Source: Sulfurimonas sp. HSL3-1 (GTDB taxonomy: Bacteria; Campylobacterota; Campylobacteria; Campylobacterales; Sulfurimonadaceae). Taken from it: 64,000 nucleotides of DNA. The stretch lies in NCBI RefSeq assembly GCF_039645995.1, contig NZ_CP147920.1:372001-436000 (forward strand), written 5' to 3'. The position numbers and the translations under genes are program-made. The notes under the pieces were generated by a model, which had not been told where the DNA came from, made no database searches, and worked only from the letters and a program-made list of their open reading frames with translations. Position 1 is the stretch's first letter; each line of letters opens with the position of its first letter. Shown one piece after another: positions 16,831 to 57,079 of the stretch.

Positions 16831-17652
16831 ATGGAGATTATCAAGAGCCCCGATGCCCTGAAAGCCGCGCTTAAAGCGACGCAGGGCAGTGTCGGCTTCG
16901 TGCCTACGATGGGAGCGCTTCACATCGGTCACAAGACGCTGATCCAGGCGGCCAGAGAGGCGAACGACATTGTCGTTGTCTCCATCTTCGTCAATCCGAC
17001 GCAGTTCCTGGCCGGGGAGGATCTCGAGAGCTATCCGCGCCGCAAAGAGGCGGACGAAAAGATCTGCAGCCTGGCCGGGGTGGATTACCTCTTCTACCCC
17101 GATGTGTCTGACATGTACGGCGAGGACGAAGTGAGCCTCATCGCCCCGGATGTACGCGGCTACATTCTCGAAGGAACGTCGCGCCCGGGGCATTTTAGCG
17201 GGGTGCTGACGGTCGTCAACAAGCTGCTCAATATCGTCCGTCCCGACCGCGCCTATTTCGGCCGGAAAGATGCCCAGCAGCTGATGCTCATCCAGACGAT
17301 GGTCAAGAACCTTTTTATGGACGTTGAGATCGTGCCGTGCCATACGGTACGCGACAGCGACGGGCTGGCACTGAGTTCGCGCAACGCCTACCTCTCCGCC
17401 GACGAGCGCGGCGAAGCGCTGAAGATCTCCCGCGCGCTCACCAAGGCGTCGCATCTGGTCGGGAAGGGGGTGTTGGAAAGCGACCGTCTCTATGCGGAGA
17501 TGCTGGCCGTCCTGGAACCGCTGGAAGTCGAACACGTCGCCATCGTCAACCGGGCGTTTACGCCGCTTGACACGGTGGAAGTCGGCAATACGATCATTCT
17601 TGTCGAGGCGGTTGTCGGGACGACGCGGCTTTTGGATAACGTCTGGATATAG
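16831..17652 (+). CDS. panC: Pantothenate synthetase
   Basis: This encodes the 273-residue enzyme that joins pantoate and beta-alanine with ATP to make pantothenate, the precursor of coenzyme A. The ATP-binding PTMGALHIGH (HIGH motif) is at about residues 25-34, followed by VSIFVNPTQF, TSRPGHFSGV, YFGRKDAQQL and the KMSKS-like region LSSRNAYLS. Length and motifs are normal. It stands alone; the next gene is convergent, with a repeat element between. Other pan genes are not in the window. Confidence 0.97.
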   Translation: MEIIKSPDALKAALKATQGSVGFVPTMGALHIGHKTLIQAAREANDIVVVSIFVNPTQFLAGEDLESYPRRKEADEKICSLAGVDYLFYPDVSDMYGEDEVSLIAPDVRGYILEGTSRPGHFSGVLTVVNKLLNIVRPDRAYFGRKDAQQLMLIQTMVKNLFMDVEIVPCHTVRDSDGLALSSRNAYLSADERGEALKISRALTKASHLVGKGVLESDRLYAEMLAVLEPLEVEHVAIVNRAFTPLDTVEVGNTIILVEAVVGTTRLLDNVWI

Positions 17653-17653
17653 C

Positions 17654-17784
17654 TTTTGTTCCCCTTCTTTTTTGCTTATCCAAAAAAGAAGCCGAACCGG
17701 GAAGAAAAAAGGATAAAAGGCTACCGCTTTCGGGACATTCCACTCCCAGGCGATCCGGCTGACACGCTAATTACCGTTTCGGCC
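17654..17784. repeat. Dispersed palindromic intergenic repeat, copy 1
   Basis: This 131-base element recurs at 55498-55675. It begins with TTTTGTTCCCC and contains a perfect 10-base inverted repeat, CTTCTTTTTT at 17663-17672 and AAAAAAGAAG at 17682-17691, around GCTTATCC. A shared tail through CCGAACCGGGAAG, CGCTTTCGGGACA and CTGACACGCTAAT follows. It fills the gap between the convergent genes panC and ftsI. The palindrome could act as a two-way terminator. The short ORF across it is not thought to be real. Confidence 0.85.
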
Positions 17785-17818: not shown

Positions 17819-19621
17819 TCAGTGCTTGGCGCTGATTGCTACTTCTTCCGCTGCCGTGTTTGCATCCGGCACGAGGTACCCCTCCCGCACCATCATATCG
17901 ATCACTTTTTTGTTGACCGCGACGGCGGTCAGGGAAGCGAAGTGGTATTTCTTCGGCTTGATGACGGTGACGCCGATCGTGTAGCGGTGCCCCTGCGTGT
18001 CGTTGGCGAAGCCGAGGAAAGAGGTGTTGTACTGGTTGACGTAGTGGCCCCCTTCGGCGATGTGGGCCGTTCCCGTTTTGCCGCCGAGCTCGAGGCCGGG
18101 GGTGATCGTCCCCGTCCCGGTCCCCTCCCGGACGGTTTTGATCAGGATCTTTTTCATCCTCGCGGCCGTGGCGGGGGTGAGGACCTGGACCGGGTCGTCG
18201 GTTTCAAGGGCGATGGTCTCGCCCGTGGCGGGGTCGATGAGCTTGTTGGCGACGATCGGCGTGACCGCTTTCCCGCCGTTGTTGAAGACGTTGTAGGCCT
18301 TGATCAGCTGCATCAGGTCGACGCGCAGGCCGTAGCCGTAGGCGGTGGTGGCCTTGTAGATCTCGGCATTCAGTTGCCGGATGCTGGGGAGGACCCCGCG
18401 TTTTTCGTAGGGAAACTCCATCCCCGTCGGCCGGGTCAGACCGAAGTTCCGCAGCCCTTCGGCGAATTCGTCCCCTTCGAGCTTTTGGGCCAGCTGGGCT
18501 ATGCCGATGTTCGAGGAGTGGACGATGACGTTCTCCGCGCTGATCCAGTTGAACTTGTGCTCATCGGTGATCACCTTGCGCCCCATCCTGAAGCGTCCGC
18601 CGTGGCCGTTGACGATGTCAAAGGGATTAACCTTCCCGTGTTCAAGCAGAATGGAGAAGACGAGGGGTTTGAGGACCGAACCCGGTTCGAAACTGTACTC
18701 AAGGGCTCCCGTATTGAGGGCACTGTAGTCGCTTTTTTTGATCTGCGTCGGCAGAAAGCGGTTGGAGCTGGCCAGGGAGAGCACTTCCCCGTCGTCGCTG
18801 CGCATGATCACGACCATGATCTCTTCGGCATCGAGGTAGGCTTTCATGGCGTCTGCGATGCGTTCGACCCTTATCTGCAGCGTGACGGGTATGGTGAGCT
18901 GAAGGTCATAGCCGTCCAGGGGCGGGGTAAAGAGGCTCTCTTTGGTCAGACGCTTGTAGTTGTTGGCGTCGCGGGGAGCATAGGTGTAACCGTTGCGGCG
19001 GGCCTGCAGCGAATCGTCGAACTGTTTCTCCAGCCCCTTGATCCCCCGGTTGCGGGTATAGCCGTCCTCTTCGAACTTGCGGGGGTAGCCGATGAGCGGG
19101 GTGAGGAGGTCGCCGTAGGGGTAGACGCGCGCTTCGCCGCTTTCGACGACGTTGAGTCCGTGCAGGATCGTATCCCCCGAGGGGGTTTCGTACTCGACGA
19201 AGATCCCCAGCCTGCGCAGTTCGAACGCGAGGCTTTTGAGGTACTGGGCCCGCTTGGGGGAGATGTCGTAGCTGAGCACGACATTGCCGCGACGTTTACC
19301 GAGTTTTTGGCGGATCTTTTTATCCGGGATGCCGCTGTAGATGGAGAAGAGCTGCACGAAGAGCTCTTTTTTGTCGGGGTCGATGTTACGGGTGTTGACG
19401 GTCGCTTTGTAGAGTTTGCGCGTCGTCGCAATATGGAAACCGTCGGCGCTGATGAGGCTGCCGCGCATCGCCTTGGTCGTGCCGGAGGTGTAGAGGCGCG
19501 GCGTGTGGCGCTCGCCCAGGGCCTTGCCCGCCATCACGAGGGCGAAGACGGCAAAGGCGAAGGTAATCAGCAAAAAGAGGATGACGATCTTTTTCTTTTT
19601 GTTCAGTTCAACGTTGGCCAT
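17819..19621 (-). CDS. ftsI: Class B penicillin-binding protein (FtsI/PBP3 type)
   Basis: This encodes a 600-residue peptidoglycan transpeptidase. ATG 19621 is preferred over 19642 because GGCGGAAG lies a normal distance upstream. A short cytoplasmic tail (NKKKKI) and one membrane helix (about 12-34) anchor it; the RGSLISADGFHIA segment is the class B pedestal-domain motif. The transpeptidase motifs are SVLK (in EPGSVLKP), SSN (in VHSSNIG) and KTG (in GGKTGTAH). Septal FtsI is more likely than the elongation enzyme from overall shape and from nearby ftsW-murG, but this is an inference. It ends convergently with panC. Confidence 0.88.
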   Translation of the reverse strand: MANVELNKKKKIVILFLLITFAFAVFALVMAGKALGERHTPRLYTSGTTKAMRGSLISADGFHIATTRKLYKATVNTRNIDPDKKELFVQLFSIYSGIPDKKIRQKLGKRRGNVVLSYDISPKRAQYLKSLAFELRRLGIFVEYETPSGDTILHGLNVVESGEARVYPYGDLLTPLIGYPRKFEEDGYTRNRGIKGLEKQFDDSLQARRNGYTYAPRDANNYKRLTKESLFTPPLDGYDLQLTIPVTLQIRVERIADAMKAYLDAEEIMVVIMRSDDGEVLSLASSNRFLPTQIKKSDYSALNTGALEYSFEPGSVLKPLVFSILLEHGKVNPFDIVNGHGGRFRMGRKVITDEHKFNWISAENVIVHSSNIGIAQLAQKLEGDEFAEGLRNFGLTRPTGMEFPYEKRGVLPSIRQLNAEIYKATTAYGYGLRVDLMQLIKAYNVFNNGGKAVTPIVANKLIDPATGETIALETDDPVQVLTPATAARMKKILIKTVREGTGTGTITPGLELGGKTGTAHIAEGGHYVNQYNTSFLGFANDTQGHRYTIGVTVIKPKKYHFASLTAVAVNKKVIDMMVREGYLVPDANTAAEEVAISAKH

Positions 19622-19656
19622 CGTGCTGCTTCCGCCCTGCATGTTTCAGTAATCGG

Positions 19657-54496: not shown

Positions 54497-55435
54497 TTGG
54501 CTACCTACCTCGATTTTGAGCAGAAGATCCAGCAGATCCAGGAAGAGATCGTCAGCGCCGAGGTGCGCCATGACGTCCACGCCGTCGAGATCCTGAAAAA
54601 GGATCTGGAGAAAGAGGTCAGTAAAACCTACAAGAACCTCTCTCCCTACCAGGAGCTGCAGCTGGCGCGTCACCCCGACCGTCCCTACGCCCTGGATTAC
54701 ATCAATCTGCTGCTCGAAGACAAATACGAGCTGCACGGCGACCGCCATTTCCGTGACGATGCGGCGATCCTCTGCTATATGGGTTACATCGACGGCCAGC
54801 GGGTGATGGTCATTGGCGAACAGAAGGGGCGCGGCACGAAGAACAAGCTCAAGCGCAACTTCGGTATGCCGCACCCCGAAGGGTACCGCAAGGCGCTGCG
54901 CTGCGCGCAACTGGCGGACAAGTTCAACATCCCCGTCGTCATGCTCATCGACACCCCGGGTGCCTATCCGGGACTGGGCGCCGAAGAGCGCAACCAGAGC
55001 GAGGCGATCTCCCGCAACCTGCTGGAGCTCTCCAAGCTGGAGACGATCACCATCTCCATCGTCATCGGCGAGGGGGGTAGCGGCGGCGCCCTGGCCATTG
55101 GCGTTGCCGACCGGCTGGCGATGATGCGCTACTCCGTTTTCAGCGTTATCTCCCCGGAAGGGTGTTCTGCGATTCTCTGGAACGATCCTGCCAAGGCGGA
55201 AGCGGCGACGAAGGCGCTCAAGATCACGAGCAGCGACCTCAAAGCGCTCGACTTGATTGACGATGTCATCGACGAGCCGCTCATCGGGGCGCACCGCGAC
55301 AAGTCCGGTGCGGCCGACGCGATGAAAGGCTACATTCTCGAGCGCATCAACGAGCTCTCTAATTTCAGCGGCTCCGAACGCCGCCACAAGCGCTATGACC
55401 GTTTGACGGGTATGGGCGCTTACTCCGAAAACTAA
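54497..55435 (+). CDS. accA: Acetyl-CoA carboxylase carboxyltransferase subunit alpha
   Basis: This encodes 312 residues of the alpha subunit that, with AccD, transfers CO2 from biotin to acetyl-CoA to form malonyl-CoA. Conserved stretches are [22 protein letters not shown], the CoA-site [14 protein letters not shown], and [20 protein letters not shown] and [16 protein letters not shown]. The start is TTG 54497 with AAGGT upstream. It ends the fatty-acid block; accD is not nearby. A long repeat follows before the convergent exonuclease gene. Confidence 0.97.
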
Positions 55436-55497: not shown

Positions 55498-55675
55498 TTT
55501 TGTTCCCCTTCTTTTTTACGACGAGGCATTTAGTGCCTCGCATGTATTGCGCTTTAGCGCTTATGCTTATCCAAAAAAGAAGCCGAACCGGGAAGAAAAA
55601 AGGATAACAAGCTGCCGCTTTCGGGACATGCCAATCCCCGGTGATCCTACTGACACGCTAATGTCCGTTACGGCC
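55498..55675. repeat. Dispersed palindromic intergenic repeat, copy 2, with 47-base insert
   Basis: This 178-base element matches 17654-17784 over its whole length except for an extra 47 bases at 55518-55564, placed exactly between the two arms of the CTTCTTTTTT / AAAAAAGAAG palindrome. The insert holds two hairpins of its own (GAGGCA/TGCCTC and GCGCT/AGCGC). Like copy 1 it lies between convergent genes, accA and the exonuclease gene. It occupies most of the gap 55436-55703, in which I see no real gene. Confidence 0.85.
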
Positions 55676-55703: not shown

Positions 55704-56495
55704 TTAGGCTTCGGGAGTTGTCTGCTCCGGGGGCTGGGGCGGGAATTTTGGGCGTTTGAGGCGTTTGGCCTTCTTGGAGAAGGTGATGAGCTCCTCGACG
55801 GTCTGGATCTCTGTTGGGATGCATTTGAGGGTGCGTTTGAAGAGCTTTGCCGTCGTCATCGCGTCGGAGAGGGCGCGGTGGTGGGTCGCCTCTTTGTAGA
55901 GCTCGAGCTGTTCGTTCAGGAAGGCGAGGCCGTAGCGGTAGGAGCTGATGGTGCGCTCGGCGAGGTCGATGGTGCAGAGGGTGCGGTTGAGCAGGGGCGC
56001 CATCCCGACACGCTCCATCATCTTCGAGGTGAACTGGAAGTCGAATTTGACGTCGTGACCGACGAAGATGTCGTTGCCCAGGAACTGTTTGAAATCCGAC
56101 AGTACTTCTCGCAGACCAGGAGCATCCTGGGTGTCTTCCTCCGCGATGCCGGTGATCTCGGTGATGTGCCCCGAGATATGGTCGCATCGTACCAGGCTCT
56201 CGAAGCGGTCGATGATGTGGAGGTTCTGCACCTTAACGGCGCCGATTTCGATGATCTGGTGTTTGTCGGGTTTGGAGCCGTTGGTTTCGATGTCGACGAT
56301 GCAGAAGGTCGCCGCCGAGAGGAGCTGGTCGCAGCTATGGGGATAGTAGCGTGTGCCGTCCCGGCTGACGAGTTCGAGCCCCTGGGCGCGCATCAGCTCG
56401 ACGGCCAGTTCGGCGTTTTCGCCGGTCAGCTGCTCGATCTGGTAGGCGGTGAGCCCTTCGCAGAGCTTCTGGGGGAGTTGGGAGGCTTCGATCAT
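55704..56495 (-). CDS. DnaQ-like 3'-5' exonuclease
   Basis: This encodes 263 residues of a DEDDh exonuclease related to the DNA polymerase III epsilon subunit. ATG 56495 overlaps the trpF stop codon by 4 bases and is preferred to a longer frame. About 60 N-terminal residues form a helical domain of unknown role; then Exo I is CIVDIETNG, Exo II is GHDVKFDFQF and Exo III is HRALSDAMTTAKLF. The C-terminus is a basic and proline-rich tail. It may be the proofreading subunit or a general nuclease; the sequence does not decide. Confidence 0.88.
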   Translation of the reverse strand: MIEASQLPQKLCEGLTAYQIEQLTGENAELAVELMRAQGLELVSRDGTRYYPHSCDQLLSAATFCIVDIETNGSKPDKHQIIEIGAVKVQNLHIIDRFESLVRCDHISGHITEITGIAEEDTQDAPGLREVLSDFKQFLGNDIFVGHDVKFDFQFTSKMMERVGMAPLLNRTLCTIDLAERTISSYRYGLAFLNEQLELYKEATHHRALSDAMTTAKLFKRTLKCIPTEIQTVEELITFSKKAKRLKRPKFPPQPPEQTTPEA

Positions 56496-57079
56496 GCTTT
56501 GGCCTTTGCAATAAACAGGCCAACCTTCTGCGGGTCTTTTTTCCCCTTGGACGCTTCGACACCGCTGCTGACATCGAGGGCGTAGAAGCCGTAGGGGAGG
56601 CACTCCTCGACGTTATCGGGGGAGAGTCCGCCGGCGAGGATGATTTTCGAACAGTCGACCCCCTCGAACCACTCGAGGTTGAGCCGCTTGCCCATCCCGC
56701 CGTAGGCGTCGCAGTAGGCGTCGACGAGTCGGTATTCGTCGGCGTGCGCGTTGACGTCTTCGGGGCTTTGTGCCCGGATCACACGGACATAGGGGCACTC
56801 CAGGGCGTCAAAGAGGGCATCGGGCGCATCGAAATGGATCTGGGCGAGGGTGATGCCGCTCGTTCGGGCCGCCGCGTTGATGGCCGGGGCCTCCTCGTTG
56901 ACGAAGAGACCGACCTTTTCGACGAAGGGCGGAAGTCTGCGGATGATCGCCGCGGCCGCCTCGGGGGTGATATGGCGCGGCGAGGGGGGATAGAACACAA
57001 AACCGAGCGCGTCGGCCCCGGCATCGATCGCACTCATGGCGTCTTCGTAGGAGGTGATGCCGCAGATCTTGACGCGCAC
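56492..57079 (-). CDS. trpF: Phosphoribosylanthranilate isomerase
   Basis: This encodes 195 residues of the TIM-barrel enzyme of tryptophan synthesis. The catalytic Cys is in VKICGIT at residues 3-9, and the Asp in ALDVSSGVEASKGKKD; GLFVNE and LAGGLSPDNV are also conserved. GTG 57079 is the start, 8 bases after the rpe stop codon. It is separated from any other trp gene in the window and lies in a unit with rpe and an exonuclease. Confidence 0.96.
   Translation of the reverse strand: MRVKICGITSYEDAMSAIDAGADALGFVFYPPSPRHITPEAAAAIIRRLPPFVEKVGLFVNEEAPAINAAARTSGITLAQIHFDAPDALFDALECPYVRVIRAQSPEDVNAHADEYRLVDAYCDAYGGMGKRLNLEWFEGVDCSKIILAGGLSPDNVEECLPYGFYALDVSSGVEASKGKKDPQKVGLFIAKAKA

Follow-up and report, generated by a model that had tools for sequence, protein, structure and literature searches.

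A dispersed intergenic repeat from Sulfurimonas sp. HSL3-1 with covarying helices, a mirror-image purine tract and an orientation linked to replication

The window analysed here, a stretch of 64,000 nucleotides from Sulfurimonas sp. HSL3-1 (contig NZ_CP147920.1, positions 372,001 to 436,000), holds two copies of a palindromic intergenic element, one between panC and a penicillin-binding transpeptidase gene, the other between accA and a 3'-5' exonuclease gene (Table 1). A sequence-only reading of the window had placed both copies and the perfect 10-base inverted repeat within each, and its positions proved right, as did the order of every block that it named and the convergent arrangement of the genes on either side. 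Scored against NCBIfam models and their curated cut-offs, panC, accA and the exonuclease gene lie above these, while the gene that had been called ftsI lies below them and is a transpeptidase of the PBP2/FtsI group. Short open reading frames had been expected to cross the element, and frames of 74 and 77 aa do cross the two copies, a warning for annotation in that such frames need not be genes.

The core of the element, about 70 nt long, consists of GTTC, CC, a pyrimidine tract Y1 (CTTCTTTTTT), GC, TTATCC, a purine tract R1 (AAAAAAGAAG), CC, GAAC, CGG, a second purine tract R2 (GAAGAAAAAA), GGATAA and a AAGGCTGCCGC-like block. Three pairings are predicted within it, namely Y1 with R1 (stem S1), GTTC with GAAC in an outer helix (P0) around that stem, and TTATCC in the loop with the downstream GGATAA (lock helix S2), a loop-to-tail pairing that makes a pseudoknot; R2 is R1 reversed, as an intrastrand purine triplex requires. 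The copies span 131 and 178 nt, the difference arising from 47 nt inserted into copy 2's hairpin loop, and the 3' module of both window copies is absent at sites 11, 13 and 15 elsewhere, where the core stands alone. The earlier reading had neither the pairing of loop with tail, nor the second purine tract as a mirror image, nor the polarity relative to replication that is described below.

Table 1. Positions in the window of the two repeat copies, their parts and the neighbouring genes
Feature	Positions	Strand	Remark
Copy 1 (site 1)	17654..17784	+	foldable Y-R-R strand is the + strand
Copy 1 outer helix P0, 5' strand GTTC	17658..17661	+	partner GAAC at 17694-17697
Copy 1 pyrimidine tract Y1 (CTTCTTTTTT)	17664..17673	+	5' strand of stem S1
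Copy 1 2-nt linker GC	17674..17675	+	long-insertion point in nine other genus copies
Copy 1 loop segment TTATCC	17676..17681	+	lock helix S2, 5' strand; partner GGATAA downstream
Copy 1 purine tract R1 (AAAAAAGAAG)	17682..17691	+	3' strand of stem S1
Copy 1 outer helix P0, 3' strand GAAC	17694..17697	+	
Copy 1 second purine tract R2 (GAAGAAAAAA)	17701..17710	+	exact mirror of R1; proposed third strand
Copy 1 lock helix S2, 3' strand GGATAA	17711..17716	+	
Copy 1 end of core module (AAGGCTACCGC)	17717..17727	+	CTGNCG-type block after S2 in many copies elsewhere (other genera)
Copy 1 second, 3' module (TTTCGGGACATTCC...CTGACACGCTAAT...)	17728..17784	+	missing at three of 19 sites
Copy 2 (site 3)	55498..55675	+	
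Copy 2 Y1	55508..55517	+	
Copy 2 47-nt loop insertion	55518..55564	+	two small hairpins; site 3 lacks it in the other three species
Copy 2 loop segment TTATCC	55567..55572	+	S2, 5' strand
Copy 2 R1	55573..55582	+	
Copy 2 R2	55592..55601	+	mirror of R1
Copy 2 GGATAA	55602..55607	+	S2, 3' strand
panC	16831..17652	+	upstream neighbour of copy 1; TIGR00018, 299.6 bits against cut-off 212.75
Penicillin-binding transpeptidase (PBP2/FtsI group)	17819..19642	-	convergent neighbour of copy 1; below curated cut-offs of all listed models
accA	54497..55435	+	upstream neighbour of copy 2; TIGR00513 above cut-off
3'-5' exonuclease	55704..56603	-	convergent neighbour of copy 2; NF006316 above cut-off

In the window's own genome (G000, one contig of 2,499,021 bp), copy 1 matches 16 places by blastn (E 1e-79 to 1.5e-18), and a covariance model of the core finds 17 copies (E 1.1e-24 to 1.3e-16), its further matches being the opposite strand of the same palindromes or having E values of 0.075 or more. 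This recurrence is far beyond chance, and the whole-genome check bears out the earlier proposal of a dispersed intergenic family with further copies. Seven of eight genomes of the window's genus (g1) carry the repeat; G044, which is 99% complete, has no copy at all, so the repeat is dispensable. A first covariance model matched 15 of 200 genomes in a family sample and a second matched 14 of 397 in a phylum sample, namely four of g1, seven of a second family (f4) and three (G520, G377 and G503) whose matches look unrelated and were not counted, those of G520 being plain long hairpins; a model trained on seven f4 elements matched 78 of 175 f4 genomes. All these counts are lower bounds, because the large samples were scored with stricter filters. 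One exact pattern, run across genome contigs, matched three Campylobacterota contigs from metagenome-assembled genomes, one of them named Sulfuricurvum; another handle for one of the three, L020, is probably the same g1 genome as G050 and hence no independent find. Distant blastn with copy 1 gave no match in a plasmid collection, and each of three typed triplex patterns gave 0 matches among viral contigs. In genus g8, that of G025, the core sits inside a longer conserved repeat, roughly 230 bp by eye, and at L079 (G025:C1:1848546-1850164) four g8 copies lie within 1.6 kb in the same direction.

The helices can be judged by covariation. Among 16 rows (15 distinct) selected on sequence alone, with structure playing no part, 97.3% of the 300 cells are paired, against 47-56% for slid versions, and 6 of 20 pairs show changes on both sides. 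Within the lock helix of these 15 rows, four of the six pairs change on both sides and one on a single side, the outermost being open in 5 of 15; its variants include TTATCC/GGATAA, TCGCAC/GTGCGA, TTGTGC/GCACAA and CATAC/GTATG. The outer helix covaries across genera as GTTC/GAAC, GTCA/TGAC, GTTA/TAAC, GCTA/TAGC and TCAA/TTGA. When 26 sequences from g1 and g8 are taken together, all three helices covary, with both-side changes at 15 of 19 pairs, the stem and lock figures of this set being inflated because stem, lock and a limit of one mirror mismatch had served to select its 18 g8 rows. The outer helix, not used in choosing rows, is 84.2% paired in the same set, with double changes at 4 of 4 pairs. 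A free test of the lock used 23 copies of G025 in which the second tract was placed by its mirror and the lock played no part in the choice: 100 of 115 cells are paired, against a mean of 68 and a maximum of 81 in 1000 shuffles. Vienna folds, which admit neither pseudoknot nor triplex, give a moderate z-score of -2.7 on the + strand.

The second purine tract follows the stem as a third strand should. Across 67 of the 68 copies from four complete g1 genomes (the decayed L120 escaped the anchored parser), 659 of 670 positions are T-A.A or C-G.G, whereas 1000 shuffles that re-deal the R2 tracts average 593 and reach 623 at most, and all ten triples are canonical in 57 of the 67. When the offset is free and copies are taken regardless of R2, a mirror accounts for 265 of 270 positions in 27 distinct g1 copies, against 228 for a direct repeat, and over 48 distinct copies of g1 and G025 the mirror is better in 37, tied in 11 and worse in none. 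The corresponding figures for 21 distinct G025 copies (two of 23 loci were dropped as duplicates) depend on the closing G-C pair, being 198 against 173 of 203 with that pair left open and 174 against 167 of 206 with it taken into the stem, which shifts the tract by one. In 19 distinct tract sets of g1 and g8, with R2 taken as the stretch immediately ahead of the lock strand and no demand on it except a mostly purine composition, 183 of 189 positions fit the mirror and 141 the direct repeat. For 25 f4 elements the observed pairing of 285 exceeds the maximum of 278 in 500 shuffles, the mirror (285) and the direct repeat (281 of 338) being inseparable there because most f4 tracts are nearly symmetric.

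The mirror tract thus changes jointly with the stem over about ten tract types. No polymerase copies a strand in mirror image, and so strand copying or conversion alone cannot create such a match, which we take as evidence for a triple helix. The + strand would form a purine-motif (R.R:Y) triplex and the - strand the pyrimidine one. Distinct G-T wobble states that keep the pairing number 11 for the + strand against 3 for the - strand (p 0.057; leaving out the chimera described below, 0.039), as counted over 87 copies of which 67 are from g1 and 20 are others picked with at most one mirror mismatch; the asymmetry weakly favours the + strand. A bottom-strand RNA reading, with a telomerase-like U.A-U triplex, was ranked lower because the wobbles favour the opposite strand.

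In g1 and f4 the orientation of the copies nearly always follows chromosome replication. In the window's genome all copies are on the + strand between 123 and 897 kb and all on the - strand between 1.97 and 2.27 Mb (n=17), with dnaA at 389-865 (nearly the same position as in G010, G027, G036 and G025) and a change of sign in GC skew near 1.2 Mb. Flank comparison resolves the 68 copies of the four complete g1 genomes into 19 sites, of which 15 occur in all four genomes, one in three, two in two and one in a single genome. Every one of the 19 is oriented with the replication fork (p 3.8e-6), and the origin-proximal half contains 18 of them (p 7.6e-5; two sites that G000 lacks were placed by synteny for this second count). 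The complete f4 genomes, each of which begins with dnaA-dnaN by ORF reading and three of which were sampled for GC skew and flip about half-way (weakly in the second half of G252), have 8 of 8 (G252), 4 of 5 (G407), 4 of 4 (G619) and 1 of 1 (G443) copies with the fork. Their total of 17 of 18 drops three G252 matches on the opposite strand of stronger ones, keeps both an against-fork match of G407 (L268) that has no proper second purine tract and a decayed co-oriented one (L271), and includes three G252 copies within about 5 kb that may not be independent. In g61, nine of the ten sites were compared, and these share no flank. Genus g8 breaks the rule: G025 has 8 copies with the fork and 19 against it, partly clustered (27 matches with E up to 0.01, counted by hand with the terminus taken at half the contig). 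Of the four genera with complete carrier genomes examined, three accordingly have the Y-R-R strand in the lagging-strand template at almost every copy.

That both window copies lie in convergent gaps had been read as a pattern of two for two; the enrichment is real, but genome-wide 12 of the 17 gaps are convergent, 4 are tandem, 1 is undecided and none is divergent (gap types were read by hand from tables of a codon-phase ORF heuristic), compared with 9 convergent ones in a sample of 55 gaps, each 100 bp or longer, from 20 stretches of 12 kb (one-sided Fisher p 5.5e-5). Three of the four copies in tandem gaps run against the genes and with the fork, so that replication, not transcription, seems to set their direction. 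That nearly every copy is fork-oriented in most of the complete genomes examined suggests a part for the repeat in chromosome copying rather than in the ending of genes. The two-way terminator put forward in the sequence-only reading is not supported: the test for an intrinsic terminator found A/T-rich stems in place of a G+C-rich one and no T-run, in the genus each replichore has a single orientation, and a lack of terminator activity is reported for the related PIT elements (PMC4666352). A terminator scan returned 0 terminator-like sites at either window copy, which is weak evidence given chance expectations of just 0.6 and 0.8. A terminator indifferent to replication was rejected on orientation and sequence.

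Although the sites are largely fixed, their contents are not. Core identity exceeds 97% in 26% of 92 orthologous pairs but in only 10% of 530 pairs within a genome and 10% of 1589 other pairs, and one orthologous site often has different core types in different species; at site 11, two different core types are followed by one and the same unique 3' tail. The chimeric copy L092 combines the hairpin of one type with R2 and the lock strand of a second type, which breaks the fold. Exchange between copies is the simplest reading of this allele pattern. Loop insertions occur in nine of the 67 parsed genus copies, eight alike of 47 nt and a different one of 46 nt, all nine in the 2-nt linker that separates Y1 from the 5' strand of the lock; no site has an insertion in every species that possesses the site. 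The 47-nt piece of copy 2, with its hairpins GAGGCATTTAGTGCCTC and GCGCTTTAGCGC, is itself a recurring one, its eight alike copies being spread over six sites in four genomes and coming and going between species at fixed sites. Each of the four sites not common to all four genomes shows replaced intergenic DNA, and comparison of these non-shared sites with their empty counterparts showed no clean junction and no target duplication. At L141, L142 and L143, sites of G000 or G027 without the repeat, the intergenic stretch differs, so the contents of the gaps seem to be exchanged as blocks; L143 has an extra open frame that looks OmpA-like.

Structures of this kind have precedents. Catalogues of bacterial intrastrand triplex motifs go back to 2000; the literature examined deals with their biophysics and copy numbers and contains no test of third-strand covariation. 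On the sequence criteria of Y-R-R order and mirror rule the repeat is of the intrastrand triplex kind and is not TM-ECO. Like the PIT elements BoxC and TM-ECO, as these are set out by Holder and colleagues (2015, PMC4666352), it has the class II order of pyrimidine, purine and purine on one strand with an antiparallel purine third strand, is intergenic, numbers about twenty copies and clusters in the origin half, as in E. coli K-12; according to the same source, TM-ECO copies occupy the first half of each replichore in K-12 and not in other strains, and earlier work saw neither promoter nor terminator activity. In g1 and g8 a tract Y, a complementary R and an antiparallel matching second R lie on one strand at class II lengths of 6-15 nt. 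The loops of the g1 form, 8 and 9 nt, exceed the 1-6 nt of the ITxF criterion and fall within the range of 0-10 nt from Hoyne 2000, as quoted in PMC4666352.

The differences from TM-ECO are nevertheless considerable. The TM-ECO/BoxC consensus, CCCTCNCCC-N3-6-GGGNGAGGG-N3-GGGNGAGGG, has loops of 3-6 and 3 nt and does not fit the present copies, whose tracts are A/T-rich (for example CTTCTTTTTT or TTTCTTTCTT) and not CCCTCNCCC. These tracts are mostly A, whereas PMC4666352 ascribes the stability of the purine motif to G-G-C triplets. The present repeat also has a covarying outer helix and a loop-to-tail lock, the word 'pseudoknot' being absent from the text of PMC4666352, and is strictly fork-oriented in three genera, whereas TM-ECO/BoxC, the main class II case, is described as intergenic with no strand bias (PMC4666352). 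By our hand recount of the published table, given the positions assumed for oriC and terminus, 13 of 23 TM-ECO copies are with the fork. Triple-helix H-type pseudoknots of the telomerase RNA type likewise have a loop that pairs downstream and a connecting strand along the stem; their third strand differs from the purine one of Y-R-R, the pyrimidine version here would lie on the other strand, where the wobble evidence is weaker. No description of a locked or fork-oriented form was recognised among openly available papers judged by titles and abstracts. Within a known kind, the A/T-rich loop-locked form, present in two Campylobacterota families, appears to be new. Joint change of mirror tract and stem is evidence of the sort by which folds are established; taken with the polarity, it makes the function of such motifs testable.

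The three helices, mirror rule, polarity, fixed sites and allele turnover that sequence comparison shows for this repeat could all be accommodated by a strand-specific DNA structure, neither gene nor terminator, that folds in the lagging-strand template and whose alleles are exchanged between fixed sites, a reading to which we give about an even chance. In the single-stranded Y-R-R strand, Y1 and R1 would form the stem, the loop would pair with the tail and so lock it, and the second purine tract would lie back along the stem as a reverse-Hoogsteen, purine-motif third strand. Since in three of the four genera the Y-R-R strand is almost always the lagging-strand template, which is exposed at each passage of the fork, we infer that it folds there; folding in vivo, in DNA rather than RNA, is likewise inferred, as is every step at the fork. 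The fold would slow lagging-strand synthesis or leave a gap, and the folded or gapped site would then be acted on by repair or by strand exchange from other copies. Folding at the fork followed by repair would explain both the polarity and the replacement of alleles at fixed sites by those of other sites. PMC4666352 records that PIT elements block DNA polymerase in vitro without effect in vivo, that DMS footprinting in vivo gave no support for a stable TM-ECO triplex, and that its authors link intrastrand triplex motifs to local genome instability.

A non-autonomous mobile element, of IS200/IS605 or REP/RAYT-like type, entering the lagging-strand template in single-stranded form would turn the polarity into an insertion scar and the fold into a recognition signal for the enzyme; we regard this as possible but on the unlikely side. 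It predicts exactly the polarity observed, IS608 and ISDra2 being described in PMC6006769 as targeting the lagging-strand template, and the copies are dispersed between unrelated flanks with a common end block, four of the 19 sites being not in all four genomes. Among 16 genomes tested for a Y1 transposase, nine of them carriers, five of the nine carriers have a match, but the other four (G010, G027, G036 and G401) have none to PF01797 at E up to 0.001. The 15 sites common to all four genomes are old, so insertion is not frequent, and the non-shared sites show no clean empty site or target duplication. The repeat resembles REP/RAYT systems in being a short palindromic intergenic repeat in a genome with one RAYT gene, and resembles MITEs in its length of about 70-180 bp and its multiple intergenic copies. 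The earlier suggestion of REP- or MITE-like mobility is not shown: the genome's sole REP-type transposase is flanked by a different palindrome, so the repeat neither flanks nor accompanies the RAYT gene, the three other complete g1 carriers have no match to the transposase family, and the aligned copy ends have, by eye, no terminal inverted repeats. That REP-associated tyrosine transposase (L018:1255-1788; G000:C1 about 2318325-2318858, - strand; NF047646, 97 bits) has its own palindrome, CGTTCCCACCG-CGGTGGGAATG.

KOPS and Chi are sites whose orientation is kept by selection, and they are the model for a reading in which the repeat would be a selected directional fork signal, a locked three-stranded knot that forms at about 17-20 places in the lagging-strand template, almost all of them in the origin-proximal arms, with a job such as the loading of primosome or recombinase or a programmed pause. 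We consider this unlikely.

It is improbable, in our judgement, that the repeat is an RNA element of 3' untranslated regions, in which a pseudoknot in the + strand transcript of the upstream gene would block 3' exonucleases or end transcription where convergent gaps need insulation of 3' ends. The excess of convergent gaps (12 of 17) with none divergent and the wobbles in favour of the + strand would fit such an element, and a 2-nt linker over a 6-bp helix is ordinary in RNA H-type pseudoknots; against it, three of the four tandem gaps have the repeat oriented by replication and not by the gene, and there is neither T-run nor G+C-rich stem. The mirror rule, too, fits a purine third strand in the major groove, which is a DNA motif, and a search of Rfam 15 with copy 1 only gave a best E of 0.057, far under the gathering score of that family.

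Finally, the copies could be fossils, old insertions tolerated in convergent gaps, kept alike through gene conversion only and presently inactive, which we also hold to be improbable. The replacement of alleles at fixed sites, the one chimeric copy and the dispensability seen in G044 agree with this, as does earlier work, quoted in PMC4666352, that saw no effect of PIT elements in vivo. Different tract types each with their own mirror, which conversion would not create, speak against it, as do the full set of canonical triples in most parsed copies and a polarity found in three genera of two families.

Two further sequence features adjoin the repeat. Tandem units of 7 nt (CTTAGCA), varying in number, lie just downstream of several copies (L006, L097), and near the repeat at these same loci there is another recurring block like CGCCCCGGAGGAAG.
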